Of a stretch of DNA of 33,476 bases, positions 1 through 14,775 are shown one piece after another; the first letter of the stretch is position 1, and every line of letters begins with the position of its first letter. A program made the position numbers and the translations under genes. The notes below the pieces were generated by a model, which saw only the letters and a program-made list of their open reading frames with translations, did no database searches and had not been told where the DNA came from. The stretch is from NCBI RefSeq assembly GCF_001678675.1, contig NZ_LZRN01000044.1:1-33476 (forward strand), in the 5' to 3' direction. This DNA is from Gelidibacter algens. Lineage in GTDB: Bacteria > Bacteroidota > Bacteroidia > Flavobacteriales > Flavobacteriaceae.

Positions 1-10
1 AAATCATTAA

Positions 11-23
11 TGTCCGATAAAAA
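11..23 (+). repeat. left terminal inverted repeat of the IS4 element
   Basis: TGTCCGATAAAAA is the exact reverse complement of 1371-1383. It marks the left boundary of the insertion sequence. Confidence 0.8.
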
Positions 24-104
24 TTAAACCGGCTTGATTTTATTTTTTATCTATATGATTTTCAGTGCTTTGATTTATATCTTTCGTTTTTTTTGAAAAA
101 CAGG

Positions 105-1307
105 TCACAGATTAAATACTAGTTGTTCTGATTCAGCTTTGTCAATTATCCAATCCTTTTCGGGGTTTTCCAGAAATCTCATCAAATTGATGTAATTGAA
201 AAGGTGGATTTTGCAGAAGCTGACCAAATTTGAAAATGCCCAACTGCGCTTCAATCTCTTTTTAACCACTGCCAATAGCAGATTGACTATCAGAACACAA
301 TAAATTTGTATTTTAATTGCATTTTCATTATCTCCCAAGAAATATTTCAATGGAAAATTCTGTTTCAGCTGTTTAAACAGTATTTCTATTTGCCATCTTA
401 TTTTGTACAGGGCAGCAATTAAATCGGCGCGCAAGTCAAACAAATTAGTTAAAAATTCAAATTCTCGTTTGTTTACGCGGTCATAAAACGTCACTTTCCT
501 CAATCTTAATTTCGATATTTCCTTGCCTTTTTTTACATCAACTTCAATAATTTCATCTTCTAAAACTCCGTTATGGATCCGTTCCCCAATATCTAATTTT
601 TCGATACTTAGATACGATGCGTTGTCTTTTATGCGAGTTACAAATCCTGTTTTATGGGCTGTAAAATGCTCAAAAGCCTTGTAATCATTATATGCCTTAT
701 CAAAAACATAAATGGTGTTCTCATCGCATTTTAGCTTTTCTAAAAATTTATGATCGTGTGTTTTGGCTTCACTGAACCAGACCAAGCTCGGTACGATTTC
801 ATCTGCGTTGATAACAGAATGTACTTTTATTCCCCCTTTTCTTTTTCCGCTTTTTGGATTTCTGCCAACGCAACCCATAATGTCCCTAAAAAGGCTAATT
901 GTTGAACTGTCGAAAATTTTGACCTGCTTTATTATGACATCTTTAATGCGGCTGTCCGATAAGAAACCACCATACTGTTTGAGCAATTGATGATAGATAT
1001 TTTCAAAGACCAAAACATCCCTTTTCTTGTTTGCATCAGATAAAGTACTCCTTTTGGGAATATGGTTTAGCTGAAAACTACTCGTTTTTCCCGATAGACC
1101 CAGCATTGCTCCAGATATTTCACGCAATGACGTGCACTTTGAGAACGAACAGAAAAGCATACTTATCAAATGGTCCTTTGTGGTAAATCGCTTGGTGTAA
1201 CGGTCTGAATCACATTTCTTGACCTCTCTTCTTATCAAAGAATCATCTATTAAAGAAATCAGCTGTCCGAAAACAGATTTACTGGAAAAATAATTACTTT
1301 TACTCAT
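105..1307 (-). CDS. IS4-family DDE transposase
   Basis: This 400-residue protein has the IS4 layout: an N-terminal DUF4372-like DNA-binding part (about residues 5-75), then an RNase H-like DDE core. The catalytic acidic residues are D133 (IFDSSTISLF), D203 (YVFDKAYNDY) and E308. E308 lies in the family's YREK signature, with the exact spacing Y301-x2-R304-x3-E308-x6-K315. The gene is full length without internal stops and sits inside matching inverted repeats, so the element may still be active. The hairpin upstream of the start could limit read-through expression, as known for some IS elements; that role is inferred. Confidence 0.93.
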   Translation of the reverse strand: MSKSNYFSSKSVFGQLISLIDDSLIRREVKKCDSDRYTKRFTTKDHLISMLFCSFSKCTSLREISGAMLGLSGKTSSFQLNHIPKRSTLSDANKKRDVLVFENIYHQLLKQYGGFLSDSRIKDVIIKQVKIFDSSTISLFRDIMGCVGRNPKSGKRKGGIKVHSVINADEIVPSLVWFSEAKTHDHKFLEKLKCDENTIYVFDKAYNDYKAFEHFTAHKTGFVTRIKDNASYLSIEKLDIGERIHNGVLEDEIIEVDVKKGKEISKLRLRKVTFYDRVNKREFEFLTNLFDLRADLIAALYKIRWQIEILFKQLKQNFPLKYFLGDNENAIKIQIYCVLIVNLLLAVVKKRLKRSWAFSNLVSFCKIHLFNYINLMRFLENPEKDWIIDKAESEQLVFNL

Positions 1308-1346
1308 CGTATTTTAGTTTTTTGCAACTCCAAATTACGATTTTTT

Positions 1347-1370
1347 AAGAAGCCATTCATTTGGCTTCTT
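1347..1370. other. hairpin inside the right end of the IS4 element
   Basis: Arms AAGAAGCC and GGCTTCTT are separated by 8 bases and followed on the plus strand by a T-run. It could act as a rightward terminator, or as a structure blocking translation of read-through transposase mRNA. The function is inferred. Confidence 0.5.
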
Positions 1371-1383
1371 TTTTTATCGGACA
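1371..1383 (-). repeat. right terminal inverted repeat of the IS4 element
   Basis: TTTTTATCGGACA is the exact reverse complement of 11-23. It marks the right boundary of the insertion sequence. Confidence 0.8.
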
Positions 1384-1386
1384 ACA

Positions 1387-1560
1387 ATGAATAAAAATAT
1401 AAAATATGTTATGGCATTTTCAAATAATAATTCTAACAAGTTAATTGAAGAAAATATTCAGAAAATAAAATCAAGCATTGCAAAATTCTCTGTAATTCAA
1501 ACATCTAGTGAAATGAGACAAAATTATTTCGAATTATTATTTGCACAAATTGAACATTAA
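1387..1560 (+). CDS. short hypothetical ORF abutting the IS4 element
   Basis: A 57-residue ORF begins three bases outside the IS right end (MNKNIKYVMAFSNNNSNK at the N-terminus) and ends at the TAA at 1558-1560. It is hydrophilic and Asn/Lys/Ile-rich, with no signal peptide or recognised domain. The start so close to the IS boundary suggests the insertion removed or separated the 5' part of a longer gene, so it may be a gene remnant. I do not recognise the family. Confidence 0.35.
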   Translation: MNKNIKYVMAFSNNNSNKLIEENIQKIKSSIAKFSVIQTSSEMRQNYFELLFAQIEH

Positions 1561-1584
1561 TTACCCGTTAGATCTCGCGTCTCC

Positions 1585-1783
1585 CCCCGCTAGCGCTCGT
1601 TTGTAACGAGTGCCCGCAAAGTGTCCATAATAAAAATCAAACATCAAAACCAAAACATTTATACAGTTCCAATCAATACCAACAAGTTGTATTTTAGTGC
1701 TATGAGCCGAAACTATAAATTGCATAGTAAAGCAAAACTTTTTCAGCTTAATCCACAACGCTCATCCATAAAAAATTTCCATT
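1585..1783 (+). mobile_element. RAYT/REP relic, copy A
   Basis: It begins with the palindromic head GCTAGCGCTCGTTTGTAACG (from 1589), followed by a leader of about 90 bp and TTTAGTGCTATGAG, which contains the start codon of a REP-associated tyrosine transposase (ATG at 1702). The reading frame gives MSRNYKLHSKA, then runs into a segment ending in ...AATCCACAACGCTCATCC and stops making transposase sense. Copy C (3537-3728) has the same junction and the same right end (AAAAAATTTCCAT), so A and C are two copies of one deleted, non-autonomous element. One extra T at about 1738-1742 shifts the frame of A relative to C. Confidence 0.6.
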
Positions 1784-1790
1784 GGATACT

Positions 1791-1899
1791 TCGGTTCGAT
1801 TTGTGCCAGTGATTTCGGTTTCATAGTGCCAGGCATTTCGGTTCAAACTGTGCCACTTTTGCCTGTGTGGTAAAAGTCTATATCGGTTCGATTTGTGCC
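1791..1899. repeat. four short repeats, possible end of an IS21-like element
   Basis: Four related 16-17 bp units of the form TCGGTTCGATTTGTGCC start at 1791, 1815, 1838 and 1883, spaced 24, 23 and 45 bp (the last about twice the period). IS21-family elements have multiple terminal repeats of this kind, and the wording resembles such ends in Bacteroidetes as I recall them. No transposase remnant lies next to them, so the family assignment is tentative. Confidence 0.4.
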
Positions 1900-1920
1900 A
1901 CAGTTCGACCTCGCTCACCG

Positions 1921-2087
1921 CCCCGCTAGCGCTCGTTTGCAACGAGTGCCCGCAAAGTGTCCATAATAAAAATCAAACATCAAAACCAAAACATTTATAA
2001 AGTTCCAATCAAAACCAACAATTTGTATTTTAGTGCTATGAGCAGAACGTAAAAATTTAATAATGAAGCAGGTCTCTATTTTGTGAC
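1921..2087 (+). mobile_element. RAYT/REP relic, copy B
   Basis: The head palindrome GCTAGCGCTCGTTTGCAACG (1925-1944) continues into a leader nearly identical to copy A and an ATG at 2038. The frame reads MSRT, an in-frame TAA, then KFNNEAGLYFVT. This is the usual RAYT N-terminus (compare copy F, MSSKYEFQNEVGLYIVSFAT) with a nonsense mutation, and it breaks off after about 16 codons. It lies directly upstream of the aspartic protease gene at 2141 and may contribute to its 5' region. Confidence 0.6.
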
Positions 2088-2140
2088 ACATCAATAGTGT
2101 GCGTAAGCTGTGAGAAAATATATTTACCAATTTGAAAAAC

Positions 2141-3007
2141 ATGAAAATAGTTAAAGTATTTATTTATTTTATCATATGTATTTTAACAACTAGCTGTGCC
2201 ACTGGTAAAGCCGTAAAATATCTTAAAGAAGGAAAAACAGCTGAAGAAAACTTTAAAGTTACTTTACCCTTCGAGATAAAAAATGGATACATCATCGTAG
2301 AAGTAAAAATAAAAAACAAGAATTATAATTTTATTCTAGACACAGGAGCACCAAATGTGGTATCAAAAGAACTTGCTGAACGTTTAAATTTAAAAGTTAT
2401 TGATTCTGTAAATGTCTCTGATGTCTTTGATCAATCAAAAAATACTAAATATACAAGACTAGAAACAATTGAAATTGGAACACTAAATTTTATTGGAACA
2501 GTAGCTTTAATCACCGATTTTAACTCCATACCAGTGTGGTCTTCTCTTAATGTTGACGGATTTATTGGATCAAATTTAATGCAACACGCTATTTGGGACT
2601 TTGATTTCAATAAAAAACAAATTACTATAACTGACAATGAATCAAAATTAAGCTTACCTGAAGACATAATTGAGAATAAGTTGTTTATTGGTTATGCAGG
2701 AATACCTGCTATCGCCTGTAAAATAAATGGAAAAAAAGTTTGGAATTTTACTGTGGATTTTGGTTATAATGGAGGAATCGTCATACCATTTTCTGAATTT
2801 GAAAAGCAAAAAGAAGATGGGAAAATTTCAGATTTCACAAAATCTGAAACGCACGGTGTTATCGGAATTTATGGAAAACAAGATATCACAAGGGAATCAT
2901 ATAAAGGAATAATTAATGACATAGCATTCGGGAATTCTACTCTAAAAAAGGAAAAGGTATATTCAGAGCAATATTTTAATCAATTGTTTGGCTTAGATTT
3001 TTTTTAG
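2141..3007 (+). CDS. retropepsin-like aspartic protease, lipoprotein
   Basis: The protein has 288 residues. The first ~20 form a lipoprotein signal peptide ending in the lipobox LTTSC (Cys19), so it is likely anchored to a membrane facing the periplasm. The catalytic motif FILDTGAPN holds D67-T-G, typical of clan AA (retropepsin-type) proteases, followed by the hydrophobic-Gly region DGFIGSNLM (about 139-147). A second, degenerate half shows VDFGYNGG (D206), as expected for a duplicated pepsin-like fold lacking a standard second DTG. ATG 2141 is preferred over TTG 2132 because it starts a better signal peptide. The gene is flanked by RAYT relics B and C. The substrate is unknown. Confidence 0.75.
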   Translation: MKIVKVFIYFIICILTTSCATGKAVKYLKEGKTAEENFKVTLPFEIKNGYIIVEVKIKNKNYNFILDTGAPNVVSKELAERLNLKVIDSVNVSDVFDQSKNTKYTRLETIEIGTLNFIGTVALITDFNSIPVWSSLNVDGFIGSNLMQHAIWDFDFNKKQITITDNESKLSLPEDIIENKLFIGYAGIPAIACKINGKKVWNFTVDFGYNGGIVIPFSEFEKQKEDGKISDFTKSETHGVIGIYGKQDITRESYKGIINDIAFGNSTLKKEKVYSEQYFNQLFGLDFF

Positions 3008-3168
3008 AAATTATCGGGTCATCCTAAATTGGAAAAGTAAAAAGATCAAGCTGATAGCAAATAATGAAAACGCAAATTTGAAATATAAAGCCTACGCACA
3101 ACACGCTATACTTTATTGCCACAATCTAACCTATTAATCGTGTAAATAATGCCAAAATTAAAGTTAAA
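3008..3168. other. intergenic spacer with a possible intergenic-repeat fragment
   Basis: No gene is seen. The stretch at about 3092-3122 (GCCTACGCACAACACGCTAT and following) resembles, from memory, a repeat often found between small hypothetical genes in Flavobacteria. Only one copy is present here, so this cannot be tested within the window. Confidence 0.25.
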
Positions 3169-3516
3169 ATGAAATACACTGAATTTAATATTGACGCAAA
3201 TAAAATAGAATTCTTAAATTCTAAATTCGGATTAGAACGTGTGTTAATAAACGGAAAGAAAATATCAAGTAAGTTTTCAATAACTGGAATTGCGCACAAA
3301 TTCAAACTGAACTCAAAAGATTACATTCTAAAATCTAAGTATACATTATTTGGGACCAGAGTGATTAATATTCAACTCTCTGAAAATGGAAAGCTAATCG
3401 ATACGAAAGCTATCGAAATAAATAAAAAGCAACACATCTATTGGATGGCTTTTGGAATATGTGTTGGTTTGCTTGGGTTTGAATTAGGAAAACTTCTGCT
3501 AGAAAATATCGGTTGA
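3169..3516 (+). CDS. hypothetical tail-anchored membrane protein
   Basis: The protein has 115 residues. About 90 form a soluble, Lys-rich, beta-strand-like region. A single hydrophobic helix follows near the C-terminus (IYWMAFGICVGLLGFELG, about residues 90-110), so it is probably tail-anchored with the bulk in the cytoplasm. No signal peptide or known motif is present and I do not recognise the family. It stands alone between the protease gene and RAYT relic C, in an accessory stretch where each small gene is separated by mobile-element debris. Being a real gene is likely from its uniform AT-rich codon use and clean start. Confidence 0.55.
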   Translation: MKYTEFNIDANKIEFLNSKFGLERVLINGKKISSKFSITGIAHKFKLNSKDYILKSKYTLFGTRVINIQLSENGKLIDTKAIEINKKQHIYWMAFGICVGLLGFELGKLLLENIG

Positions 3517-3536
3517 TAAAAATGAATTTAGAAGCT

Positions 3537-3728
3537 CCCCCGCTAGCGCTAGTTTGCAACGTGTGCCCACAAAAATTAGCAAACACATTTGAAACCCCTA
3601 ACATTTAGAGCGTTCCAAACAAGACCAACAATTTGTGTTTTAGTGCTATGAGCCGAAACTATAAATTGCATAGTAAAGCAAGACTTTTCAGCTTAATCCA
3701 CAACGCTCATCCATAAAAAATTTCCATG
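3537..3728 (+). mobile_element. RAYT/REP relic, copy C
   Basis: The head GCTAGCGCTAGTTTGCAACG starts at 3542. The leader then diverges from A and B but ends with the same TTTAGTGCTATGAG around an ATG (3648). The frame reads MSRNYKLHSKARLFSLIHNAHP and stops: a RAYT N-terminus joined after 11 codons to a short segment reading IHNAHP, reminiscent of the IHNNPV motif near the RAYT C-terminus. It shares its right boundary with copy A, so both derive from one internally deleted element. The remaining bases up to 3853 show no gene. Confidence 0.6.
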
Positions 3729-3853
3729 GCAAAACCACAATTCCACCACCTCCACATCATTTAATCTCCCTTTAACAACTATTAATTCTGTTTTACTTAT
3801 TTTTAAGTTTTGTACATCCGTGCGCACAATGGGTAGGATCAAAATGACGTTGA

Positions 3854-4084
3854 ATGGAAAAAGATATCGAAAGCGAAAAACCAAAGGCAATTAAAGAAAC
3901 TAAAGGCACTCTCATAGCCGATATGTATTATATGGTTGAAGACTGGATGCGTCCTTCTCCTAAACGCCCAAAATTTTTACAAGTGATTCTTTTCATAATT
4001 AAACTGCCTGCATTAGTTGTTCTTTTGGCGGTTTCCCCTATCCTGCTGTTGTTCATGTTTATTACTTTGATTGTAGCGTTATGA
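3854..4084 (+). CDS. small hypothetical membrane protein
   Basis: The protein has 76 residues. A charged N-terminal half (MEKDIESEKPKAIKETKG, with a later Pro/Lys-rich MRPSPKRPK) is followed by one or two very hydrophobic segments (about residues 42-76). There is no cleavable signal. Its TGA overlaps the ATG of the next gene in an ATGA (4081-4084), so the two are translationally coupled and probably work together in the inner membrane. The family is not recognised. Confidence 0.6.
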   Translation: MEKDIESEKPKAIKETKGTLIADMYYMVEDWMRPSPKRPKFLQVILFIIKLPALVVLLAVSPILLLFMFITLIVAL

Positions 4085-4458
4085 AATGGCAGGAAGCGAC
4101 TTTCGGTTTAGGGCTCATTTCGAGTTTGTTATTTGTTTTGCATCAATATCTTCAATTCATAGCGCAAATTAGTATGCCTTTCTTTGACAAGTATTTGGAC
4201 CCAGCGTTGATGATGCCAATATTGTTGCACTTACTTGTTTGGGAACGCAGGCTGATCTTTCGCGATACATCCAGTCGTTTGCCGGAAAGTTATATTTTCG
4301 GTTACTTTTTGTTGGCCGTGATTTTCGGGGAATTGGTGTTCCCCTATTTAAGCGACAAGTTTATAGCGGATTATTGGGACATTCTTTCCTATGCTTTGGG
4401 AAGCTATGCTTATGCTATTGCACAACGAATTTCCAATTCGCAAAGCAGAATGCTCTGA
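4081..4458 (+). CDS. small polytopic membrane protein
   Basis: The protein has 125 residues and three to four predicted membrane helices (about 8-28, 42-56, 70-90 and 100-115), with the recognisable stretches YLDPALMMPILLHLL and DYWDILSYALGSYAYAIA. The pattern resembles, from memory, small Bacteroidetes proteins that databases label magnesium citrate secondary transporter, a label with little functional support. It follows the 76-residue membrane protein with an ATGA overlap. Both genes lie between RAYT relics C and D-E. I would not assign a transport substrate. Confidence 0.6.
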   Translation: MKWQEATFGLGLISSLLFVLHQYLQFIAQISMPFFDKYLDPALMMPILLHLLVWERRLIFRDTSSRLPESYIFGYFLLAVIFGELVFPYLSDKFIADYWDILSYALGSYAYAIAQRISNSQSRML

Positions 4459-4506
4459 ACAAATTCTTTAGTAAACCGAACATCAACGCGAGATAATACT
4501 AAAATC

Positions 4507-4810
4507 CCCCGCTAGCACTAGTTTGCAACCAGTGCCCACAAAAATTAGCAAACACATCTAAAATCCCTAACATTTAGAGCATTACAAACAAGACCAACAA
4601 GTTGTATTTTAGTGCTATGAGCAGAAAATCTAAATTTCATAATAATCCAGGCATAAGTGGTTTGGTGACCAACCCGATCCATTACCACTATTCAAGTACC
4701 AAAAAGTATCAGGACAACCAGTCTGCTCTAAAATTGACGATCCTGGGTTTATGGGATGGCCTTTAATTAATGACACATGTATTGGGCACTCGTTACAAAC
4801 GAGCGCTAGC
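4507..4810 (+). mobile_element. non-autonomous RAYT element with both ends (D-E)
   Basis: The left head is GCTAGCACTAGTTTGCAACC (from 4511). About 300 bp downstream the inverted form lies at 4785-4810 (GGCACTCGTTACAAACGAGC and following). Between them is the leader, the RAYT start codon (4617) and a short ORF joining the N- and C-terminal ends of the transposase. This gives a MITE-like unit with both terminal palindromes but no catalytic core, which would need a transposase supplied elsewhere to move. Confidence 0.65.
4617..4766 (+). pseudogene. RAYT transposase with in-frame internal deletion
   Basis: The 49-codon ORF starts MSRKSKFHNNPGI, the usual RAYT N-terminus. It continues directly as SGLVTNPIHYHYSSTKKYQD, which matches the family's C-terminal HNNPVVSGFVTNP...YSSA region. 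The catalytic HUH motif (His-hydrophobic-His), the tyrosine and about 130-150 residues between the ends are missing. The reading frame is preserved across the junction and ends at TAA 4764-4766. The motif HNNP occurs in both parent regions, which points to deletion between short direct repeats (CATAATAATCCA-like). That mechanism is inferred. Confidence 0.7.
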
Positions 4811-4814
4811 AGAG

Positions 4815-4836
4815 GAACTTTTTTTTAAAAAAGTTC
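4815..4836. other. hairpin adjoining the D-E element
   Basis: Arms GAACTTTTTT and AAAAAAGTTC form a perfect, weakly paired stem immediately after the right palindrome of D-E. It is mostly A-T pairs; whether it terminates transcription is unclear. Confidence 0.35.
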
Positions 4837-4927
4837 TCAATGTTCCGTAAAGAAAAACGATATTTATAAATGAAACCTTTAACCCAGAAAGGTCAACCTA
4901 TTTCAGGACAAGACAAAAAATAGAACT

Positions 4928-5140
4928 ATGAATAAAGCAAGAGTTTTAGGAATACTATTATTTATTTTAGGATTTTATTTAATGTATAAAAGTCATAACT
5001 CAGAATCTGGTTTCCTTATTAATGCCTTGATTGGAGCTCTTACTGCAGCAGGATTTTTTTTTAGCTGCTTTTGGAAATTTGAAGTTCAGAAATTAAATTC
5101 AAATATTTTGACAAATTACAATTTGACTTTCACCCGCTAG
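4928..5140 (+). CDS. small two-helix membrane protein, 3' end altered by a repeat
   Basis: The protein has 70 residues and two hydrophobic helices (about 7-22 and 31-48: VLGILLFILGFYLMY and LINALIGALTAAGFFF). No family is recognised. Its TAG stop (5138-5140) lies inside the conserved GCTAGC of RAYT relic F. The last codons and the stop were therefore probably contributed by the inserted element, and the original C-terminus may have been different or longer. Confidence 0.5.
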   Translation: MNKARVLGILLFILGFYLMYKSHNSESGFLINALIGALTAAGFFFSCFWKFEVQKLNSNILTNYNLTFTR

Positions 5141-5355
5141 CGCTCGTTTACAACGTGTGACCACAAAGATTGTCAACCATATAAAACCAAACAATCTACC
5201 CCGCTAAAATAATTACGACCAACATAGACAATTTGCATTTTAGTGCTATGAGTAGCAAATATGAATTCCAAAATGAAGTAGGTCTTTATATTGTTTCATT
5301 CGCCACCGTATATTGGATAGAAATATTAATAAGAGAGGTTTGTGCTCATCTTTAA
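5134..5355 (+). mobile_element. RAYT/REP relic, copy F
   Basis: The head GCTAGCGCTCGTTTACAACG starts at 5136, followed by a leader of about 90 bp ending in TTTAGTGCTATGAG. Of the copies here it holds the longest stretch of transposase N-terminus. It lies upstream of the aromatic amino acid hydroxylase gene. The right palindrome is absent nearby in the same arrangement. Confidence 0.6.
5248..5355 (+). pseudogene. RAYT transposase N-terminal fragment
   Basis: The 35-codon ORF reads MSSKYEFQNEVGLYIVSFAT, then VYWIEILIRE, and stops soon after. This is the standard N-terminus of Bacteroidetes RAYT proteins up to the first core strand. The similarity ends at about codon 30. The HUH motif and catalytic tyrosine are absent, so the fragment is inactive. 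Confidence 0.65.
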
Positions 5356-5528
5356 AATGATGTCACCAGATCGTTTTATTCGCCCACTTAATTGTTTTAA
5401 GAGCTCATGATGTGCTTCGCAGTTGCTCATATACTGCAAAGTTTCACGTAAATTTGCACTTGGAAGGGTTAGGGCTTTAGTACGCACTGCGCCACACACA
5501 AAAACGGTACTGATAATTGTAAAAAATC
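5356..5528. other. spacer upstream of the aromatic amino acid hydroxylase
   Basis: No gene, recognised repeat or clear TAnnTTTG promoter is seen between RAYT relic F and the hydroxylase start. The promoter of the hydroxylase gene remains unplaced. Confidence 0.4.
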
Positions 5529-7295
5529 ATGAGTAAAAACAATCATTACGAGAGTAACGAATTAATTGACAGGTTACCAAAACATTTAAAACAATTTATT
5601 AAGCCTCAAAACTATGACCATTACACGCCTATCAATCAAGCGGTATGGCGTTATGTGATGAAAAAGTGTGTGGATTATCTGGCTGATGTGGCACATGAAT
5701 CTTATTTGCATGGACTGGAACAGACCGGAGTTAGTGTTGAACGAATTCCAAGTATGTACGGAATGAATCGTATCCTTAAAGAAATCGGGTGGGCAACCGT
5801 AGCGGTAGATGGGTTTATCCCTCCAAATGCGTTCATGGAATTTCAGGCGAACAAAATACTGGTTATAGCTTCTGATATAAGGCAATTGGAACATATTGAA
5901 TATACGCCCGCACCTGATATTATTCACGAATCTGCGGGTCATGCACCAATTATTGCCAACCCAGATTATGCCGAATACTTGAGACGTTTAGGAGCTATTG
6001 GAGCTAAAGCCATTCTTTCCAAGCACGATATGGACATATATGAAGCGGTAAGAGAATTATCAATTCTAAAAGAAGCCGTAGGAATTAGCCAAGAAAAAAT
6101 TGCTATTGCAGAAGCCAAGGTCAATGAACTCCAAAATATGAAAGTGGAGCTTTCTGAAATGGGTCAGATAAGAAATTTACAATGGTGGACGGTTGAGTAT
6201 GGTTTAATTGGAGATATTGACGATCCTAAAATTTATGGCGCTGGATTATTATCGTCTATTGGAGAAAGCAAATCATGTCTTAGTAATAGTGTGAAGAAAA
6301 TTCCGTATTCTATTGCAGCAGCTTATCAAGAATTTGATATCACCAAATCGCAACCACAATTATATGTTACTCCTGACTTCTCTTATTTAATGCTTGTATT
6401 AGAACAGTTTTCTAATACCTTAAGTATCCGAAAAGGAGGACGTAAAGGCTTACAAAAACTCATTGATTCCCAATTGATAGGAACTATAGAGTTAAGTACA
6501 GGTTTGCAAGTGTCTGGTAAATTTTCAAAAGCCTTATTTAATGACGATAATGAAGTCATCTTCTTTAAAACAGAAGGACCTACTGCTTTGGCATTTCGGG
6601 AAAAAGAATTGATAGGTCATGGCATTGACTCTCATAGTCATGGATTTAGTTCACCGCTTGGGAAATTGAAAAACATCAATCTGGCAATTGAAGATATGGG
6701 ACCTGTAGATTTGAAAGCCTACAACTTTTATGATGGGAAATGGCTATCATTTGAGTTTGAAAGTGGCATAAAAGTCGAAGGACTCAATGTGACCGGCATT
6801 AGAAATGTATATGGAAAATTGATGCTTATCCAATTAAATGACTGTACAGTAACCTATAAAGAGGAGGTATTATTCTTACCTGAATATGGTTTGTTTGATA
6901 TGGTTATCGGAAAAGAAATTATAGCTGCATTTTCAGGTACTGCTGATAGTAACTCGTTCCCTAATTTGTATGAAGTATCTCCTATTAAAACCATAAAACA
7001 AATAGAAACTGAATCTCAGCGACATTTAGAGGAACAGTATGCTATAGTAGCAGAAATGAGAACGAATGGATTAGAAGATGACACGGTTTTAGCAGAATTG
7101 TTTAACCTACTAAAAGATAACTATCCAAAAGAATGGTTGCTACACCTTGAAATTTTGGAAATTACGAACGATGAGAATTTAGCACTTTCAATTCACTCAC
7201 ATTTAGCAAAAACAATAGAGAAATTCCCCAATCTAAACCTATTGATTACTGATGGGATACAAATTATCAAAAAAACAATCACCAACAAAACTTAA
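5529..7295 (+). CDS. aromatic amino acid hydroxylase (phenylalanine-4-hydroxylase type)
   Basis: This 588-residue, non-haem iron, pterin-dependent hydroxylase probably converts phenylalanine to tyrosine. The iron-binding triad is visible: H133 and H138 in PDIIHESAGH and E223 in WWTVEYGLIG. The catalytic domain covers about residues 30-290. Typical bacterial PheH is about 260-300 residues, so this protein carries an extra C-terminal half (about 300-588) without a domain I can name. Long forms of this kind are known in Bacteroidetes. There is no signal peptide, so it is cytoplasmic. It sits at the right edge of the RAYT-rich stretch. Use of phenylalanine rather than tryptophan is inferred from family resemblance. 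Confidence 0.87.
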   Translation: MSKNNHYESNELIDRLPKHLKQFIKPQNYDHYTPINQAVWRYVMKKCVDYLADVAHESYLHGLEQTGVSVERIPSMYGMNRILKEIGWATVAVDGFIPPNAFMEFQANKILVIASDIRQLEHIEYTPAPDIIHESAGHAPIIANPDYAEYLRRLGAIGAKAILSKHDMDIYEAVRELSILKEAVGISQEKIAIAEAKVNELQNMKVELSEMGQIRNLQWWTVEYGLIGDIDDPKIYGAGLLSSIGESKSCLSNSVKKIPYSIAAAYQEFDITKSQPQLYVTPDFSYLMLVLEQFSNTLSIRKGGRKGLQKLIDSQLIGTIELSTGLQVSGKFSKALFNDDNEVIFFKTEGPTALAFREKELIGHGIDSHSHGFSSPLGKLKNINLAIEDMGPVDLKAYNFYDGKWLSFEFESGIKVEGLNVTGIRNVYGKLMLIQLNDCTVTYKEEVLFLPEYGLFDMVIGKEIIAAFSGTADSNSFPNLYEVSPIKTIKQIETESQRHLEEQYAIVAEMRTNGLEDDTVLAELFNLLKDNYPKEWLLHLEILEITNDENLALSIHSHLAKTIEKFPNLNLLITDGIQIIKKTITNKT

Positions 7296-7316
7296 ACTGA
7301 ACTAAAGCGCAGTTTA
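7293..7316. other. small inverted repeat after the hydroxylase gene
   Basis: TAAACTG and CAGTTTA flank a 10-base loop, starting at the hydroxylase stop codon. There is no T-tract, so it is at best a weak terminator. Confidence 0.25.
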
Positions 7317-7461
7317 GCAAAACCATTATATAAAACAGGTACATCTGCTAAAGAAAATAAGCATTTCAAAAAAGAAGAAACAGCGCATCTCAGATCTATT
7401 GTATAAAAACTCAAAAAGCGAAACTTGGTTTAATTGAACTAGGATAATGTTTCGAAAGATC

Positions 7462-7486
7462 GGCACTCGTTGCAAACGAGCGCTAG
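7462..7486 (-). repeat. solitary REP-like palindrome, inverted (copy G)
   Basis: GGCACTCGTTGCAAACGAGC and the following GCTAGC are the reverse complement of the heads of copies A-F. No transposase sequence adjoins it. It marks the right limit of the RAYT-rich region, just before the end of the RES toxin gene. Confidence 0.6.
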
Positions 7487-7502
7487 CCCTATTTTGCAAA
7501 TG

Positions 7503-7964
7503 TTAAGTGCCAAGCACCCTAGCGTCCAAATCCAACAATCCTTTCCGAATAACCTTGATATCTGCAAACCGTTCGTGGTTTGGATTGATAAGGATATTAT
7601 TCTCATGAGGCAAGACTGCGGAAGGCATCCTTATGGCCAAATCACTTCTGGATAGCAACCAACTCGAACCAAAATCCTGCGTGGCGACCAAAGGTGGGTT
7701 GTGACGCCAATCCTGTCTTAAAATGGTATTTGAAGACTTTGTAGCAATCAATTCGTCAGGTACTTCCAATTCGATGAAGCCAAAATCCTGATTGATAAAT
7801 TTGAAATCCATATGCACTAAAAGTTCCAGAACACACAAAGACAAAAACTGCGAGCAATACAGCATATTGTAACCTTTTTTATTCCAGCGACCACCATAAA
7901 GTCGTGCTCCTTCTCCACTCAAATCGGATAAGTAATCGTTTTTGGCAATGCGAAAAATCCTCAT
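7503..7964 (-). CDS. RES-domain toxin of a RES/Xre toxin-antitoxin pair
   Basis: The 153-residue protein matches the RES domain over its whole length. The signature GEGARLYGGRWN is at residues 17-28, followed by the conserved Tyr of LYCS and the Glu of LELLVHM. RES toxins of characterised systems (for example MbcT) deplete NAD+ and arrest growth; the same activity is inferred here. It starts 6 bp after the antitoxin stop on the same strand, the usual antitoxin-first order. The protein is full length, so the system is probably functional. Its 3' end lies next to the REP-like palindrome G. Confidence 0.88.
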   Translation of the reverse strand: MRIFRIAKNDYLSDLSGEGARLYGGRWNKKGYNMLYCSQFLSLCVLELLVHMDFKFINQDFGFIELEVPDELIATKSSNTILRQDWRHNPPLVATQDFGSSWLLSRSDLAIRMPSAVLPHENNILINPNHERFADIKVIRKGLLDLDARVLGT

Positions 7965-7970
7965 AACCCC

Positions 7971-8471
7971 TTATGAATAAACCCCTTGCTCAATACGCCC
8001 CAAAGCATCTTTGATTAGCGTAGTGCCAAAACTCGTATCGAGATAATCGATCGGTTTTTGATAATCGAGATGTCTCACTTCTGAATGTAGCCAAGATGTA
8101 AATGCATCGAGCGAACCCAACACATCAATACCTCGTGAAATGACTTCGGCAATTTCCAAAACCTGCTCTGTGGAATTGATGTTTAGCAAATCGGAATCGT
8201 TTTTTCGCTGAATAGTACGATGTGAGATGTGTAATAACTGACTCATTTTTTCCATAGAAATGGACAAAATGGTACTCAAAGTTTGAATGATCGATTTTGG
8301 CAAACCTTTACGTGATATCTCAATGAGATCGATATCATTATTAATTGTATAACCAACAGCAACACTGCCTCCCAAAACACTGACCATGCGTTGGTATTTA
8401 TTTTGAAGACCACAAAAAGCTTCGGGCTCTTGAGCCAAATTTTGAATGATAACTTCGGATGTTGATTTCAT
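7971..8471 (-). CDS. Xre/MbcA/ParS-type antitoxin with DUF2384
   Basis: The antitoxin has an N-terminal HTH-like region (ISMEKMSQLLHISHRTIQRK) and a C-terminal DUF2384 toxin-binding region (GSLDAFTSWLHSE ... SFGTTLIKDALGRIE). The open frame extends upstream to 8510, but an operator-like dyad (8484-8509) covers that start. The ATG at 8469-8471 (MKSTSEVIIQ, 166 residues) is therefore preferred; ATG 8489 is a further option. It should neutralise the RES toxin encoded directly downstream and repress its own operon. The choice of start is moderately sure, the family assignment sure. Confidence 0.82.
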   Translation of the reverse strand: MKSTSEVIIQNLAQEPEAFCGLQNKYQRMVSVLGGSVAVGYTINNDIDLIEISRKGLPKSIIQTLSTILSISMEKMSQLLHISHRTIQRKNDSDLLNINSTEQVLEIAEVISRGIDVLGSLDAFTSWLHSEVRHLDYQKPIDYLDTSFGTTLIKDALGRIEQGVYS

Positions 8472-8483
8472 ATTCACGACATT

Positions 8484-8509
8484 TGACATAAATATAGGTA
8501 TTTTTGTCA
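8484..8509. promoter_or_regulatory. operator dyad of the RES/Xre operon
   Basis: Arms TGACATAAATA and TATTTTTGTCA match as an inverted repeat at 10 of 11 positions with a 4-bp spacer (TAGG). On the minus strand the dyad contains TATATTTA, close to the Bacteroidetes -7 motif, 19 bp before the ATG at 8471. Antitoxin binding here would block transcription; this autoregulation is inferred from other Xre-type systems. Confidence 0.6.
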
Positions 8510-8566
8510 TATCATAAAAGTAAATTTATTTATTTAACTCAAAATTTTGAACATATCAGCTAAAAA

Positions 8567-8807
8567 GCGTGATAAGCATTTGACGTCCTATAGGACAAGC
8601 TAATCACACAAGTGAGAAATGGAATCGTTAGTTTAATGACATGAGATAAACTTCATAAGATCCCGCTAAAAAGCGGGATAAGCCCTTCGACTACGCCCAG
8701 GACAGGCTAATCACACAAGTTTTGAGAAATGCAATCATTAGTTTAATGACATTGAGATAAACTTAAAAAGATCCCTCGACATGCTCGGGATAAGCGACTC
8801 ACACAAG
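8567..8807. repeat. imperfect tandem repeat array with hairpins
   Basis: The motif CTAATCACACAAGT recurs at about 8600 and 8707, with a diverged form (CGACTCACACAAGT) at about 8795. It is followed in the first two cases by GAGAAATGGAATCGTTAG-like and GTTTAATGACATGAGATAAA-like sequence, a period of about 107 bp. Small palindromes are interspersed: GTCCTATAGGAC (8585-8596) and CCCGCT/AGCGGG around 8662-8677. No ORF of interest is present. It fills the space between the antitoxin promoter and icmF. Confidence 0.6.
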
Positions 8808-8827
8808 TTTCGCGAAAAGCGAAACTT
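8805..8827 (-). terminator. hairpin downstream of icmF
   Basis: Arms AAGTTTCGC and GCGAAACTT (9 bp, perfect) enclose a 5-base loop, 10 bases after the icmF stop. There is no clear T-run, so termination strength is uncertain. The phrase GCGAAACTTGGTT also occurs alone at about 7420, so the arm belongs to a local repeat. Confidence 0.45.
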
Positions 8828-8837
8828 GGTTCGCTGC

Positions 8838-11800
8838 TTACATATTTCTCCTATACTGCCCACCAACCTCAAATAACGCCTCCGTAATTTCACCTAAAGA
8901 GCACACCTTACAAACCTCCATCAAGGCCTCAAAAATATTCTCGTTATGAATGGCTCTTTGCTGCAAATCTTTTAACAAGGCAGTAGTGTCATTTGCTTTA
9001 TGAAGATTCTCCAAGGTTTTAATTTGAAATTTTTTCTCTTCCTCAGTGGCACGAATGACTTCTTTTGGTTGTATCGTCGGCGATCCTGTACTACTTAAAA
9101 AGGTGTTTACCCCAATGATTGGAAATTCGCCGTTGTGCTTTAACGTCTCATAATACAAGCTTTCTTCCTGGATTTTACTACGTTGGTACATGGTTTCCAT
9201 CGCGCCAAGCACGCCACCTCTTTCGGTAATGCGGTCAAACTCCAACAACACGGCTTCTTCCACCAAATCGGTCAGTTCTTCAATGATGAAGGAGCCTTGG
9301 ATTGGGTTTTCATTCTTGGCCAAGCCTAATTCTTTATTGATGATCAACTGAATGGCCATGGCACGACGCACAGATTCTTCCGTAGGCGTTGTGATGGCTT
9401 CATCATATGCGTTTGTATGCAAGGAGTTACAATTGTCATAAATAGCATACAGCGCTTGCAGCGTGGTACGGATATCATTAAAATCAATCTCTTGGGCATG
9501 CAAACTACGCCCAGAGGTTTGGATATGGTACTTCAACATTTGCGCTCTCGGATCAGCACCATATTTATTTTTCATCGCTTTGGCCCATATTTTACGAGCC
9601 ACCCGACCGATAACCGCATATTCTGGATCAATCCCGTTGGAGAAAAAGAACGACAGGTTGGGACCGAATTTGTTGATGTCCATCCCTCTACTTAAATAAT
9701 ACTCCACATAGGTAAAGCCGTTAGACAAAGTCAAGGCCAATTGGGTAATTGGATTGGCTCCAGCCTCCGCAATATGATAGCCAGAAATAGACACTGAGTA
9801 GAAATTACGGACATTATTTTCAATGAAATATTCCTGTACATCGCCCATCAATCGCAAGGCAAATTCCGTAGAAAAAATACAGGTGTTTTGGGCTTGATCT
9901 TCTTTTAAAATATCCGCTTGCACGGTACCACGCACTTGGGCAATCGTTTTGGTTTTGATGTCTTGGTAAACGGCGTCTGGCAATACTAGATCGCCAGTAA
10001 CGCCTAAAAGCATTAGACCAAGGCCATCATTACTCTCTGGCAACTCGCCTTTATAGCTTGGTCGCTCAACAGCCTTATCTTTATAAATTTTGGCAATCTT
10101 GTCCTCCACCTCTTTTTCCAATCCGTTTTCCTTGATGTACAATTCACACTGCTGATCAATGGCGGCATTCATAAAGAAGCCCAGCAACATTGGCGCAGGA
10201 CCATTGATGGTCATACTGACCGAGGTCATGGCGTGCGACAAGTTAAAGCCGGAATACAGCTTTTTGGCATCATCCAAACAGCAGATGCTTACCCCTGCAT
10301 TTCCGATTTTCCCATAAATATCAGGTCGGAGATGAGGATCGTTTCCGTAAAGTGTGACGCTATCAAAAGCGGTCGACAAACGTTTGGCAGGCAAACCGGC
10401 ACTCACATAATGAAAACGTCGGTTGGTTCTTTCCGGCCCACCTTCACCAGCAAACATACGTGCAGGATCTTCACCAGTTCTTTTAAAAGGATATAATCCG
10501 GCAGTAAACGGGAATTCGCCAGGTACATTTTCTTGAAGCACCCATCTTAAAATATCACCCCAAGCTTGGTACTTTGGCAGCGCTATTTTTGGGATTTGGG
10601 TATGGGAAAGCGACTCGGTATGGGTTTCTATCTTAATTTCCTTATCTCTAACTTTAAAGGAATAGATCGGATCTTTATAGGTGTTGACTTTTACGTCCCA
10701 GCCGGTGATCACTTCCCAATTATAAGGGTCGAGGTTTAACTTGACACGGTCGAATTCGCCCACCAATAATTTTATAAAATCTTTATTTTCGTCGTTCTCT
10801 GAACTGACAGATTTGCTTTCTATCCCTGCTTTGTCTAATTCTGGCGTGTGCCCGATAACCGATTCGATAGTTTTGTAAATACCGTAGAGCTTTTGTGCCA
10901 CCTCCACTTGGTCATCAGCGGTTTTATCGTAGGCACGGTTGCTTTCTGCAATTTCAGAAAGGTAACGTGTTCTTGAGGGCGGAATGACAAAAATCTTTTC
11001 ACTCATTTCTTCTGAAATGGTAAAGGTGGATTTTAAATCGGCATCCGTTTTTTTAACAACTTCGTCCATGATCGCCTTGTAAAGCGTGTTCATTCCTGGA
11101 TCATTAAATTGTGAGGCAATGGTTCCAAAAACTGGCAGATCACTCTGATCAACGTCCCACAATTGGTGGTTGCGCATGTATTGTTTTTTGACATCGCGCA
11201 AGGCATCCAAAGCACCGCGTTTGTCAAATTTGTTGATGGATACCAAATCCGCAAAATCGAGCATATCGATTTTTTCCAACTGGGTGGCGGCACCAAACTC
11301 CGGCGTCATCACATACAGAGCCACATCAGAATGTTCAACAATTTCAGTATCCGATTGACCAATTCCGGAGGTTTCCAAAATGATTAAATCGTATTCGGCA
11401 GCTTTCAACACCTGAATGGCTTCATTGACATATTTGGAAAGTGCCAGATTAGATTGGCGCGTGGCCAAACTTCGCATATACACCCGCGGACTATTGATGG
11501 CATTCATCCGGATCCGATCACCCAAAAGAGCACCACCTGTTTTACGTTTTGAAGGATCTACCGAAATCAAGCCCACGGTTTTTTCAGGAAAGTCAATTAA
11601 GAATCGGCGTACCAACTCATCTACTAGAGATGATTTTCCAGAACCTCCAGTACCCGTTATTCCGAGAACTGGAGCCTCCTTGCCCTTTGGGCTTTTCTCC
11701 ACAGAAGAAAAAAGATTCTCAAAGGTATCATGTGCGTTTTCTGCAAAGGAAATCAATCTTGCAATTGTAGTGACGTCTTTATCTTTTAACGACTCCTCAA

Positions 11801-12272
11801 TTCCCTTCCCTTTGGGAAGGATTAGGGATGGGCTTTCATAATCAGAGGTTTTTACCAAATCATTGATCATGCCTTGCAAACCAAGTTCCCTACCATCATC
11901 TGGTGCATAAATTCTAGTAATTCCATAATCCATCAACTCCTTGATTTCTTCTGGAAGAATGACACCACCACCACCACCAAAAATCTTGATGTGGCCGGCA
12001 CCTTTCTCCTTCAACAAATCATACATATATTTAAAATACTCGTTATGCCCACCTTGGTAGGATGTCAAAGCAATAGCATTTGCGTCTTCTTGAATGGCCG
12101 TGTTGACCACTTCTTCCACGCTCCTGTCATGACCCAAATGGATCACTTCAACGCCCGTGGATTGAATGATGCGACGCATGATATTGATAGCAGCGTCATG
12201 GCCGTCAAAAAGAGACGCCGCAGTGACTATTCTAACTTTATGTTTTGGTTTGTATGGTGTTACTTGTATCAT
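8838..12272 (-). CDS. icmF: fused isobutyryl-CoA mutase IcmF (adenosylcobalamin-dependent)
   Basis: The 1144-residue protein has the IcmF order. A cobalamin-binding domain comes first (about 10-140, with the cobalt-ligand H25 in LFDGHDAA, where the usual final Gly of DxHxxG is Ala). A MeaB-like GTPase chaperone follows (P-loop [11 protein letters not shown] 204-214, NKFD 347-350), then the acyl-CoA mutase barrel (about 560-1120). Methylmalonyl-CoA mutase has Tyr and Arg contacting the substrate carboxylate. Here the aligned residues are F596 (GLYPFKR) and Q795 ([10 protein letters not shown]), the IcmF pair, so isobutyryl-CoA/butyryl-CoA is the likelier substrate. The linker (about 145-200) contains an apparent in-frame palindromic repeat. 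A -7 motif lies 28 bp upstream. Confidence 0.92.
11804..11832 (-). repeat. stem-loop repeat translated inside the icmF linker
   Basis: CCTTCCC-TTT-GGGAAGG (11804-11820) is a perfect 7-bp stem followed by ATTAGGGATGGG. The same architecture, hairpin then AGG-rich tail, occurs between genes at 15798-15826 and in the pyrF leader repeats. Read on the minus strand it encodes about residues 147-157 ([11 protein letters not shown]) between the cobalamin-binding and GTPase domains. Confidence 0.55.
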
Positions 12273-12299
12273 TTATAAAAATTGTAGTTATACCTCTTG

Positions 12300-12307
12300 C
12301 AAATTTA
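12300..12307 (-). promoter_or_regulatory. -7 motif of icmF
   Basis: On the minus strand TAAATTTG matches TAnnTTTG, 28 bases before the icmF ATG. No well-spaced -33 TTG is visible. Confidence 0.35.
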
Positions 12308-12504
12308 CAGATTTTATAAAAGAAGTTCGCCAATATTATGATTAGTTTAAATGAGCGAGCGGGTTGCAGCAACATCAGATGCTATGCAATTATGCACATT
12401 TATAAACATACTTAGTTCTTCCCAATCGGGAAACAGATAAATCACAAAACTCAGATTGCACTTCAAAACCTTGACCGAAAACTCATTATTAGAACTATTT
12501 GATT

Positions 12505-12512
12505 TATTTTTG
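12505..12512 (+). promoter_or_regulatory. -7 motif of the DUF4197 gene
   Basis: TATTTTTG matches TAnnTTTG, 20 bases before the ATG at 12533. A -33 element at good spacing was not found. Confidence 0.35.
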
Positions 12513-12532
12513 GGCTCACTAAAAAAAATTCT

Positions 12533-13240
12533 ATGAAAAAGTCGCTATTTGTGTTGTTTGCTATATTTACCTTACATTCTTGTGCAGAATTGCAGGAGGT
12601 GGTTAATTCTCTACCCCAACAAGGCGGCGTTTTAAGTAATGCTGATATTGCCTCTGGTTTAAGACAGGCGCTTGATTTAGGAATTGAGAAACAAGTTACC
12701 AAACTGACCCAAACGGACGGTTTTTATAAAAATGAGCTCGTTAAAATCCTTTTGCCTGCCGAGTTGCAGAAAGTAGATAAAGGCTTGCGCGATATCGGGT
12801 TGGGCAATTTGGCAGATGAAGGTCTGAAAGTACTCAATAGAGCTGCTGAGGATGCGGTTAAAGAAGCAACTCCAATATTTGTGAATGCCGTTAAGGAGAT
12901 CACTTTTGCTGATGCTAAAAACATTCTTTTAGGAACAGACGATGCCGCAACACAATATCTGACCTCTAAAACGAAAACGTCTTTATATGATAAATTTCAT
13001 CCTGTAATCAACACGTCCTTTGCGAAGGTTGGCGCGGACCAAATTTGGCAAAATTTGATCAATAGATATAATGCAATTCCATTTACAAGCAATGTCAATC
13101 CAGATTTGACGGATTACGTAACCGAAGAAGCCCTAAAAGGTGTGTATACGATGATTGCTGTGGAAGAAAAAGAAATCAGAAATAAAGTAGGCTCAAGAAC
13201 AACAGAGTTGTTGCGAAAAGTGTTTGCGCTACAAGATTAA
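12533..13240 (+). CDS. DUF4197 lipoprotein
   Basis: The protein has 235 residues. A lipoprotein signal peptide ends at LHSC (Cys17), so the mature protein is membrane-anchored in the periplasm or outer membrane. The rest is mostly helical and matches DUF4197 as I recall it (GLRQALDLGIEKQVTKL ... LLPAELQKVDKGLR ... ALKGVYTMIAVEEKEIR). The function of the family is unknown. It stands alone, divergent from icmF, with a rho-independent terminator about 125 bp downstream. The start is firm because the signal peptide begins there. Confidence 0.85.
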   Translation: MKKSLFVLFAIFTLHSCAELQEVVNSLPQQGGVLSNADIASGLRQALDLGIEKQVTKLTQTDGFYKNELVKILLPAELQKVDKGLRDIGLGNLADEGLKVLNRAAEDAVKEATPIFVNAVKEITFADAKNILLGTDDAATQYLTSKTKTSLYDKFHPVINTSFAKVGADQIWQNLINRYNAIPFTSNVNPDLTDYVTEEALKGVYTMIAVEEKEIRNKVGSRTTELLRKVFALQD

Positions 13241-13365
13241 TTTATAAGTTAATCCATTGCTAATACTTACATAACATACGTGTTTAAAATTAGGTTTAGA
13301 TTTGTGTAACCAAATTAAAGAGTGCGCTGTTAACTTTATTTTGGCAATTGAGAGAGTTAGTTAGT

Positions 13366-13399
13366 AAGTCGGTTGATTAATCCAATCGACTTTTTTTTT
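13366..13399 (+). terminator. rho-independent terminator
   Basis: AAGTCGGTTG pairs with CAATCGACTT (one G-U pair) around a 7-base loop and is followed by a run of T. It ends the DUF4197 transcript or precedes the next small gene as an attenuator. Confidence 0.65.
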
Positions 13400-13469
13400 A
13401 CCCCATTACAATTTTAACTTGTTGCCTTCCAATATTTTAGATATATTGACCTTTCTAATTGTTGTAGTC

Positions 13470-13670
13470 ATGAAAACTTTAATGCAGATTAAAACGCACC
13501 AACTCAAACTACAATTGCGGTATAAGCAACTTATTGAACAAGCCTACAACCTTCGTCAAACAGATCACGCTCTAAGTGACATCTCAGAGTATAAAGCTAT
13601 AAAGCTTTTAAACAAATTGAACCGTTTGAAATATTTAAGCCGCGATTCAACACGTCAAAGGTTAACTTGA
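13470..13670 (+). CDS. Lacal_2735-like small protein (first of two)
   Basis: From the ATG at 13470 the protein has 66 residues and is helical and basic. The central pattern LRYKQLIEQAYNLRQTDHAL, followed by SD-x-x-EYKAIKLL-x-x-LNRL, resembles the Lacal_2735 family of small Flavobacteriia proteins as I remember it; the function is unknown. The frame extends upstream to a TTG at 13419, but the ATG gives the expected family length. The next gene encodes a clear paralog (AYN-x2-QTD-x2-LSD spacing conserved). Both are probably cytoplasmic and coiled-coil prone. Confidence 0.6.
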   Translation: MKTLMQIKTHQLKLQLRYKQLIEQAYNLRQTDHALSDISEYKAIKLLNKLNRLKYLSRDSTRQRLT

Positions 13671-13748
13671 AAAATTACCAAATAATTAACGTTACCAACC
13701 CATCCTTAGGCAGTTATTGACCGTATATATAGTTCAAATCATGAACCT

Positions 13749-13976
13749 ATGAATAGACAATTTTGCAAAGTCGGAAAAATCAAGTTTAGCCTCGATGAAG
13801 TTTTGAACTTGAAAGAAGTTGAAAATAATTATTTGAAGTTTACTGAAGAAGCTTATAATTCTCTACAGACAGATGCCAGCCTAAGCGACTTTTTATACCA
13901 TGAAGCTTCCAAATTAAGAAAAATTATACTGAATTTAAAAAATTCCAAAAACGATGCTATTGATGCAGCGTTTTAA
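13749..13976 (+). CDS. Lacal_2735-like small protein (second of two)
   Basis: The protein has 75 residues. Residues about 27-62 (NYLKFTEEAYNSLQTDASLSD onward, then EASKLRKIILNLK) align with the preceding small protein without gaps in the shared core. That indicates an old tandem duplication followed by strong divergence of the N-termini. Its stop overlaps the 3' end of the convergent minus-strand gene by 20 bp. No membrane segment or signal is present. The function is unknown. Confidence 0.6.
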   Translation: MNRQFCKVGKIKFSLDEVLNLKEVENNYLKFTEEAYNSLQTDASLSDFLYHEASKLRKIILNLKNSKNDAIDAAF

Positions 13977-14739: not shown

Positions 14740-14775
14740 TATGAGATTGTCAAGTCGGTCCTCTTCGCAAAGACA

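Follow-up and report, generated by a model that had tools for sequence, protein, structure and literature searches.

What placed a row of small genes between copies of one palindromic repeat? The question is raised by a 6-kb stretch of the Gelidibacter algens draft assembly (G000; 4,506,948 bases, 140 contigs), located in contig C44, the whole of which (33,476 bases) is referred to here as the window. Each repeat unit, termed a head, resembles the 5' end of an element built around a repetitive extragenic palindromic (REP)-associated tyrosine transposase (RAYT). A preliminary description of the stretch suggested that such elements could gather genes, and named repeated insertion into a tolerant region as the simpler alternative. 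The simpler alternative fits best. We consider it likely that the 6 kb are part of an accessory island, extending from icmF to a sigma-70-type gene, in which RAYT/REP elements inserted repeatedly and then decayed. This reading draws on the anatomy of the elements, the clustering of heads, the absence of the row from the icmF locus of congeners, the lack of any detected partner RAYT in the draft host genome, and homologues of four window genes, which were fetched from other genomes and stand without heads. If the heads are only passengers, the locus is a tidy case of a low-copy REP-type element leaving repeat spacers that resemble a cassette system.

The heads and their relation to RAYT elements

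Seven matches to the head sequence GCTAGCGCTCGTTTGCAACG at no more than three mismatches were identified in the window (0.00 expected by chance), five on the plus strand (1589, 1925, 3542, 4511 and 5136) and two on the minus strand (4791-4810 and 7468-7487). All seven are within the 6 kb, and no further copy was detected at this threshold in the 4,506,948-base assembly. A head consists of a C-run or C-rich stretch, GCTAGC, the palindrome, a leader and a RAYT-like ATG. The preliminary description had listed five plus-strand heads and two inverted palindromes (at 4785 and 7462), with a palindrome, a leader and a start in each head. Both statements are confirmed: 80-87 nt of leader separate the palindrome from the ATG in 5/5 window heads, and five exact copies of the TTTAGTGCTATGAG start are present.

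Head 1 (1585-1782, plus strand) includes a C-run, the palindrome (1589-1615), the leader, an ATG at 1702, the first RAYT codons and a 3' extension. This extension is shared with head 3 (3537-3727, plus strand; palindrome 3542-3568, leader, ATG 3648), terminates at the same base in both (TTTCCAT) and is unmatched elsewhere in the genome. Head 2 (1921-2084, plus strand; C-run, palindrome 1925-1951, leader, ATG 2038) carries a 5' fragment of the RAYT gene. Heads 1 and 2 show 89% identity over 168 nt, against 64-77% for the remaining pairs in ungapped comparison. Between heads 1 and 2 is the left end (1783-1920, about 140 nt) of an unrelated dispersed insertion sequence (IS), which has seven other copies in the genome (99% identical) and is cut at head 2, with the BLAST match reaching 1927. 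Two window heads were folded. Head 2 forms a nine-pair stem with a three-base loop; the stem of head 3 is altered and folds otherwise.

Head 5 (5131-5340, plus strand; palindrome 5136-5162, leader, ATG 5248) encodes RAYT residues 1-31 (5248-5340; 61% identity, E 3e-8). The head 4 palindrome (4511-4537) opens an internally deleted RAYT element with both ends (4506-4815, plus strand), in which the first RAYT codons are fused to residues 146-183 (4638-4751; 53% identity, E 2e-7). The palindrome at 4785-4810, previously described as separate, is indeed present and inverted, and it forms the right end of this element: 4511-4810 is a single 300-nt unit and not a head plus a stray palindrome. The other inverted palindrome (7462-7487, minus strand) is alone. 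For heads 1-3, no similarity to RAYT was detected at E 1e-3; they are assigned to RAYT because the head, the leader and the first codons are common to all. Thus, the earlier designation of the heads as transposase is upheld by direct RAYT matches for head 5 and the head 4 element, and for heads 1-3 only via these common parts.

Other genomes hold the full element, in the order palindrome, leader, RAYT of about 185 aa and inverted palindrome, with a total length of 679-752 nt (L048, L049, L051, L108, L121, L124, L138 and L147). The L048 and L049 elements are from congener genomes (G003 and G007). The same flanked layout occurs in L136, but with a stop in the RAYT gene, and L051 also has a 267-nt internally deleted form (5354-5620) like that at window 4506-4815. 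At the level of sequence, the comparison confirms that the window heads are ends of RAYT elements, and the full-length relatives bear out their description as RAYT/REP relics. The host genome encodes two Y1_Tnp genes, neither of which matches the head-family RAYT by tblastn (in a draft assembly, in which a gap is possible). We call the window copies relics because a partner transposase was not found in the same genome. Intact RAYT genes, which the preliminary description suggested looking for, occur in other genomes (11 of 15 copies inspected lack an internal stop), and none was found as a partner in this draft genome.

The NCBIfam REP_Tyr_transpos model (NF047646) cut-off was passed by 2/2 RAYT copies tested. 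HUH, WQ and YIHNNP are kept in an alignment of seven copies (YIHNNP in 7/7); among the 15 inspected, WQ is present in 15/15 and S precedes HuH in 14/15. The outer flank of the heads has C at each of four positions in 121-145 of 190 heads, and CCCC in 78/191; the palindrome begins with GCTAGC in 137/191. Inverted palindrome pairs without a transposase gene were identified in L138, L139, L141 and L122.

The head-family RAYT looks, from its sequence, like TnpA-REP subclass 2.6 (Bertels group 5) of TnpAY1. In the available text of its description, this subclass is mostly from Bacteroidetes, is about 179-180 aa long, carries NH[LIV]H, WQ and YIH[QN]NP, and is bordered by atypical structures, of which the genome contains further copies (PMC6006769). 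The shared features are the origin in Bacteroidetes, the size, WQ, YIHNNP and the flanking structures; the S before HuH, where subclass 2.6 has N, is a difference (PMC6006769). The palindrome, the C-run tag and the enrichment at Rhs loci (below) go beyond that account and are described here from sequence, the window holding relics only. Like the GTAG/CGTC REP families, as far as their published account is available, the heads are tagged palindromes with paired forms, and lie mostly between unidirectional or convergent genes (PMC3733652). Unlike them, the outer tag is a C-run before GCTAGC, neither GTAG nor CGTC, and the copies are few and clustered (PMC3733652). The short inverted pairs without a transposase gene resemble REPINs, but there are few copies, and a single internally deleted form of comparable kind occurs in the window.

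Further arrangements were observed around RAYT genes. In L138 (G286), three 136-nt inverted head pairs and a stop-free RAYT element lie behind an Rhs toxin gene (8746-11410). In L109 (G303), a row of five inverted palindromes (10744-11186) is present behind a RAYT gene that contains a stop codon. L143 (G130) has two heads with about 30 nt of upstream flank in common (8518-10930) and, between the RAYT and an inverted head, a transposase pair with HTH_Tnp_1 (under the cut-off) and rve domains.

Placement of heads beside genes and Rhs toxin loci

Head tips tend to lie behind genes in changeable regions, a good share of them near toxin genes; carriage of genes is unsupported. The search of the host genome and its relatives, as proposed earlier, located host copies only in these 6 kb and heads in 62 of 397 genomes of the family (1-12 copies per genome with a match). 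The reversed head pattern was absent from the matches listed. An exact scan of a wider contig collection returned 35 stretches, all titled as Flavobacteriaceae genera or bacteria. Based on 150 head places among the matches listed, 24 of the 30 genomes with at least two listed heads contain two heads no more than 10 kb apart (random expectation 1.2; the count includes the two ends of one element), and 15/30 have a pair 0.8-10 kb apart.

The orientation of neighbouring genes was counted for heads with called open reading frames (ORFs) of at least 80 aa on both sides (n=126, some of them related). A gene lies within 120 nt on the outer side of 69/126 heads, and its 3' end faces the head in 55 of these 69. 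The corresponding figure for intergenic points drawn at random from control segments is 224 of 522 (P 8e-10, without correction for related copies). On the inner side, excluding RAYT genes, neither orientation prevails (47 to 46). The preference for 3' ends agrees with the location of REPs mostly between unidirectional and convergent genes, as given in the available part of PMC3733652. Co-orientation of heads and genes is expected from this preference, which is sufficient alone to account for the cassette-like look of repeats alternating with same-strand genes.

The leaders of the RAYT-bearing loci L051, L138 and L136 (the L136 gene with a stop) and of a lone head in L053 contain a second strong hairpin with a U-rich stretch after it (whole-piece z -4.2 to -7.4). 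The two window leaders folded are without a second hairpin (z -1.8 and -1.0). The leader hairpin could act as a transcription terminator.

Association with Rhs toxin genes was evaluated by tblastn (E 1e-5, at least 40 aa) with three query proteins (L136, L138 and L139). The head loci were picked from match lists with clusters preferred, and some genomes contributed several loci. Left out were the window, which lacks Rhs, and L060 and L065, which contain Rhs and RAYT and no head by pattern. As controls, 40 random 19-kb segments were taken from 20 long contigs belonging to 18 genomes that carry heads; 2/40 segments hold heads themselves. Rhs-toxin homology was detected at 18/50 head loci (13/36 genomes) versus 0/40 control segments (Fisher 6e-6). 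When restricted to the same 18 genomes it is present at 9/24 head loci versus 0/40 (5e-5), with loci of one genome not independent of each other. This head-Rhs association is the new element of this work, and it may reflect only the insertion tolerance of such arrays. In literature judged by titles and abstract openings, no report joining RAYT/REP repeats with Rhs arrays in Flavobacteriia was found, and the available text of papers on the Neisseria type VI secretion system (PMC10210955) and on Bacteroidetes polymorphic toxins (PMC7073777) does not describe such a link.

Individual loci illustrate the association. The five heads of L050 either follow the preceding gene at a distance of 33, 44, 116 or 238 nt or overlap its end, and 3/5 are followed, 20-100 nt past the palindrome, by Rhs pieces that start at query residues 1105, 994 and 861. 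Of five downstream genes tested at this locus, one encodes an Imm-NTF2-2 immunity domain (6443-6772) and the other four have no Pfam match. A SUKH immunity domain is encoded in L053 (1500-1967). L123 (G365) contains an exact 6784-bp tandem duplication (1599-15131). Besides an orphan Rhs tip with a small downstream gene and a head, the repeated unit carries an HTH gene, two tyrosine recombinases and a 508-aa gene in which a P-loop-like stretch is visible by eye. We also observed the module of HTH gene, gene of about 520 aa and two recombinases beside heads and orphan Rhs tips in L125 and L142 (G118), with 41-76% protein identity to L123.

Gene carriage and competing explanations

The genes between the heads begin with an aspartyl protease-like gene (2141-3007, plus strand; Asp_protease_2 3.5e-14; 29% G+C), whose block of homology with other genomes covers about 2121-3110, and a gene for a 115-aa protein with a C-terminal hydrophobic stretch (3169-3516, plus strand; 30% G+C). 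These are followed by an overlapping pair encoding membrane proteins of 76 and 125 aa (3854-4458, plus strand), a 70-aa two-helix ORF (4928-5140, plus strand; 28% G+C) and an aromatic amino acid hydroxylase of 588 aa (5529-7295, plus strand). The two-helix ORF terminates within head 5, its TAG belonging to GCTAGC. At 28-30%, the G+C content of the protease, 115-aa and two-helix genes is below the 37.5% of the whole window. None of nine gene products of window 105-8510 was detected in the 19-kb icmF stretch of 8/8 congeners, and the row was probably acquired. The same row in a relative without the repeats, which would speak for repeats that only landed between resident genes, was thus not encountered: no congener has the row behind icmF. 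Elsewhere, G001 has a partial homologue of the 115-aa protein (50% identical, with a stop) at a place other than the icmF locus, and G001 and G004 have weak (26%) homologues of the 125-aa protein, also at other places.

The preliminary description proposed that a one-ended HUH transposition, with the head as the fixed left end and variable far ends, carried neighbouring genes along and created an integron-like row. In agreement with this, the five heads are co-oriented with the genes between them, the icmF locus of congeners does not contain the row, the hydroxylase is unmatched in the congeners, the edge of head 2 cuts an IS, and three of the five L050 heads precede Rhs pieces with differing start points. 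However, co-orientation is already predicted by the 3'-end preference, a RAYT partner was not found in the host genome, and the fetched homologues of four window genes lack heads. Among fetched loci, covered to about 1.5 kb on either side, heads are present at 0/29 hydroxylase loci, 0/29 protease loci (each 29 among many matches), 0/21 loci of the 125-aa membrane protein (only 1/21 above 32% identity) and 0/22 loci of the 115-aa protein (two pairs of which overlap); many of the homologues tested are distant. Thus, no intervening gene was found elsewhere beside the same head among the loci fetched. The 76/125-aa pair keeps its order without heads in L293. Homologues of the protease, 115-aa, membrane and two-helix proteins were absent from the head loci fetched (the 70-aa and 76-aa ORFs had no genome-wide search of their own).

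Among 321 ORFs within 1.5 kb of heads, the families found in at least two genomes are RAYT (15 genomes), Rhs (6), the HTH gene and the 508-aa gene near two tyrosine recombinases (each in 2 genomes), besides sporadic pairs; no window cargo family recurs. Gene-gathering as a general habit of the element is not supported, the evidence being contrary, and a private event in this lineage is possible; overall, we regard this explanation of the row as very unlikely. A composite transposon around the hydroxylase (5136 to 7487) was also considered and is not favoured (the palindromes differ at 3/26 bases, and 0/29 hydroxylase loci have heads).

Alternatively, part or all of the five copies may have arisen without transposition, by local copying of one or two old heads and the attached leaders, which is compatible with repeated insertion and decay. 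The 3' extension common to heads 1 and 3 and the 89% likeness of heads 1 and 2 point in this direction; the lower likeness of the other pairs, the different RAYT positions at which copies stop and the two ends of the 4506-4815 element point away from it, and we judge it unlikely. The Rhs association raises another possibility, that heads are seams of toxin-immunity cassette arrays, at which orphan Rhs tip plus immunity cassettes are displaced or newly joined, through homologous exchange among copies or assisted by RAYT, the window being a decayed array. The Rhs counts, the layouts of L050, L113 and L123, the immunity domains in L050 and L053, and the tandem duplication carrying tip, small gene, head and recombinases are all consistent with this. 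Yet the window is without Rhs homology and its array genes without Pfam immunity domains, 32/50 head loci also lack Rhs homology, the arrays could be merely tolerant targets, and the four L050 genes without a Pfam match are immunity-type by position only. We regard this as quite unlikely for the window; if it is correct, it would offer a testable mechanism for the growth of orphan toxin-immunity arrays in Bacteroidota, the making of which is an area of active research (PMC12247911, a preprint available in part).

A broader version, that in Flavobacteriaceae C-tagged RAYT tips serve as seams for stacking toxin-immunity and other cassettes, each ending in or joined at a head, with the window as an old array that lost its transposase, has only a slim chance of being right. 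In this version, RAYT-made or head-templated junctions would build rAID-like arrays without need of an integrase. By layout, the rAID arrays of Bacteroidales, as presented in the available text of the preprint, are the closest analogue, with co-oriented short genes and a repeated intergenic sequence (PMC12247911). In contrast to these arrays, RAYT ends make up the window repeat, the proteins tested include neither a tyrosine recombinase nor an immunity domain, and three products of the row (the hydroxylase with 588 aa and the two ORFs with 70 and 76 aa) do not fit the rAID range of 100-300 codons (PMC12247911). Phage_integrase was not detected in the nine proteins of window 105-8510, icmF or ten further window proteins (the contig ends at an IS, beyond which one may lie), and neither a Pfam immunity domain nor a match to PADLOC was obtained for the window array genes.

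Integron cassette arrays are rows of same-strand single genes with a repeat between genes. The window differs in that its repeat is the RAYT 5' end and no integrase is present among the proteins scanned; given the nature of the repeat, the integron-like reading was dropped.

Several observations weigh against repeated insertion followed by decay. At the outer edge of head 2 the dispersed IS is truncated, and its other genomic copies continue in a different way; together with the exact 3' limit common to heads 1 and 3, this means that some breakpoints coincide with element edges. Fifty-seven joined-flank queries of inverted pairs returned two matches only, both inside L122, so no empty site was found and the insertion event itself was not observed. 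The IS cut, the common limit and the lack of an empty site leave room for edge-linked rearrangement. Finally, the hydroxylase sits between a left end and an inverted right end and is unmatched in congeners.

Under the favoured explanation, RAYT/REP elements of the Bacteroidota type would have inserted several times into the island. The HUH transposase would once have cut single strands at the C-run/GCTAGC tip, the predicted cleavage site, and the element would have been joined beside C-rich sites directly 3' of genes. Copies could be tolerated there, and perhaps kept as the hairpin and leader can end transcripts. Internal deletion, loss of right ends and IS-linked rearrangement would account for the decay, and the window genes would have arrived by other routes.

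A probable accessory island behind icmF

The conserved anchor of the insertion spot is icmF (8838-12272, minus strand; 90-91% in 8/8 congeners), a gene with fused methylmalonyl-CoA mutase and MeaB domains. In 8/8 congeners a sigma-70-type gene starts 0.3-1.9 kb after icmF and is followed by a conserved block. The best host match to this gene (C35:4841, 69%, with Sigma70 domains) is near one end of contig C35. The order of genes in congeners suggests that C44 and C35 are adjacent, and the break between contigs is likely explained by an IS4-family insertion sequence at the end of the window (4-1390, minus strand; ORF 105-1307, DDE_Tnp_1, NF033592 over its cut-off) with 20-nt terminal inverted repeats (4-23 and 1371-1390).

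The first 4 kb of C35 encode a reverse-transcriptase defence-type (DRT) gene, for which the best PADLOC model is Drt6 (1.4e-122); the match to NCBIfam Drt4 (2.1e-46) is under its cut-off. This stretch (661-3934 of L290, a locus from C35) also holds a 614-aa neighbour with only weak family matches, and both genes probably lie in the same icmF to sigma-70 interval. A RES toxin and Xre/MbcA antitoxin pair (7503-8510, minus strand) is likewise missing from the icmF locus of congeners. Taken together, this spot looks like an accessory hotspot, with a DRT-type gene, an IS, the array and the RES/Xre pair. The hydroxylase has no match in 8/8 congeners, being present in 1/9 genomes of the genus (the host only) and in 256/397 genomes of the family. 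Ten window proteins to the right of icmF have ordinary cell functions or domains of unknown function (profile scan).

Other repeats were also observed in the window. The protease is followed at 3084-3135 by a tail, GCACAACA..TATA.., and a similar tail is present in L254 (G214), a locus without a head; this motif was found after the protease in 3/47 sequences inspected. Behind icmF (8592-8831), imperfect repeat units about 90-110 nt apart include GCGAAAAGCGAAACTTGGTT, part of which also occurs near 7417. Three 49-nt tandem units with the inverted repeat TTCCTCC...GGAGGAA are located in an intergenic region at 15610-15753.

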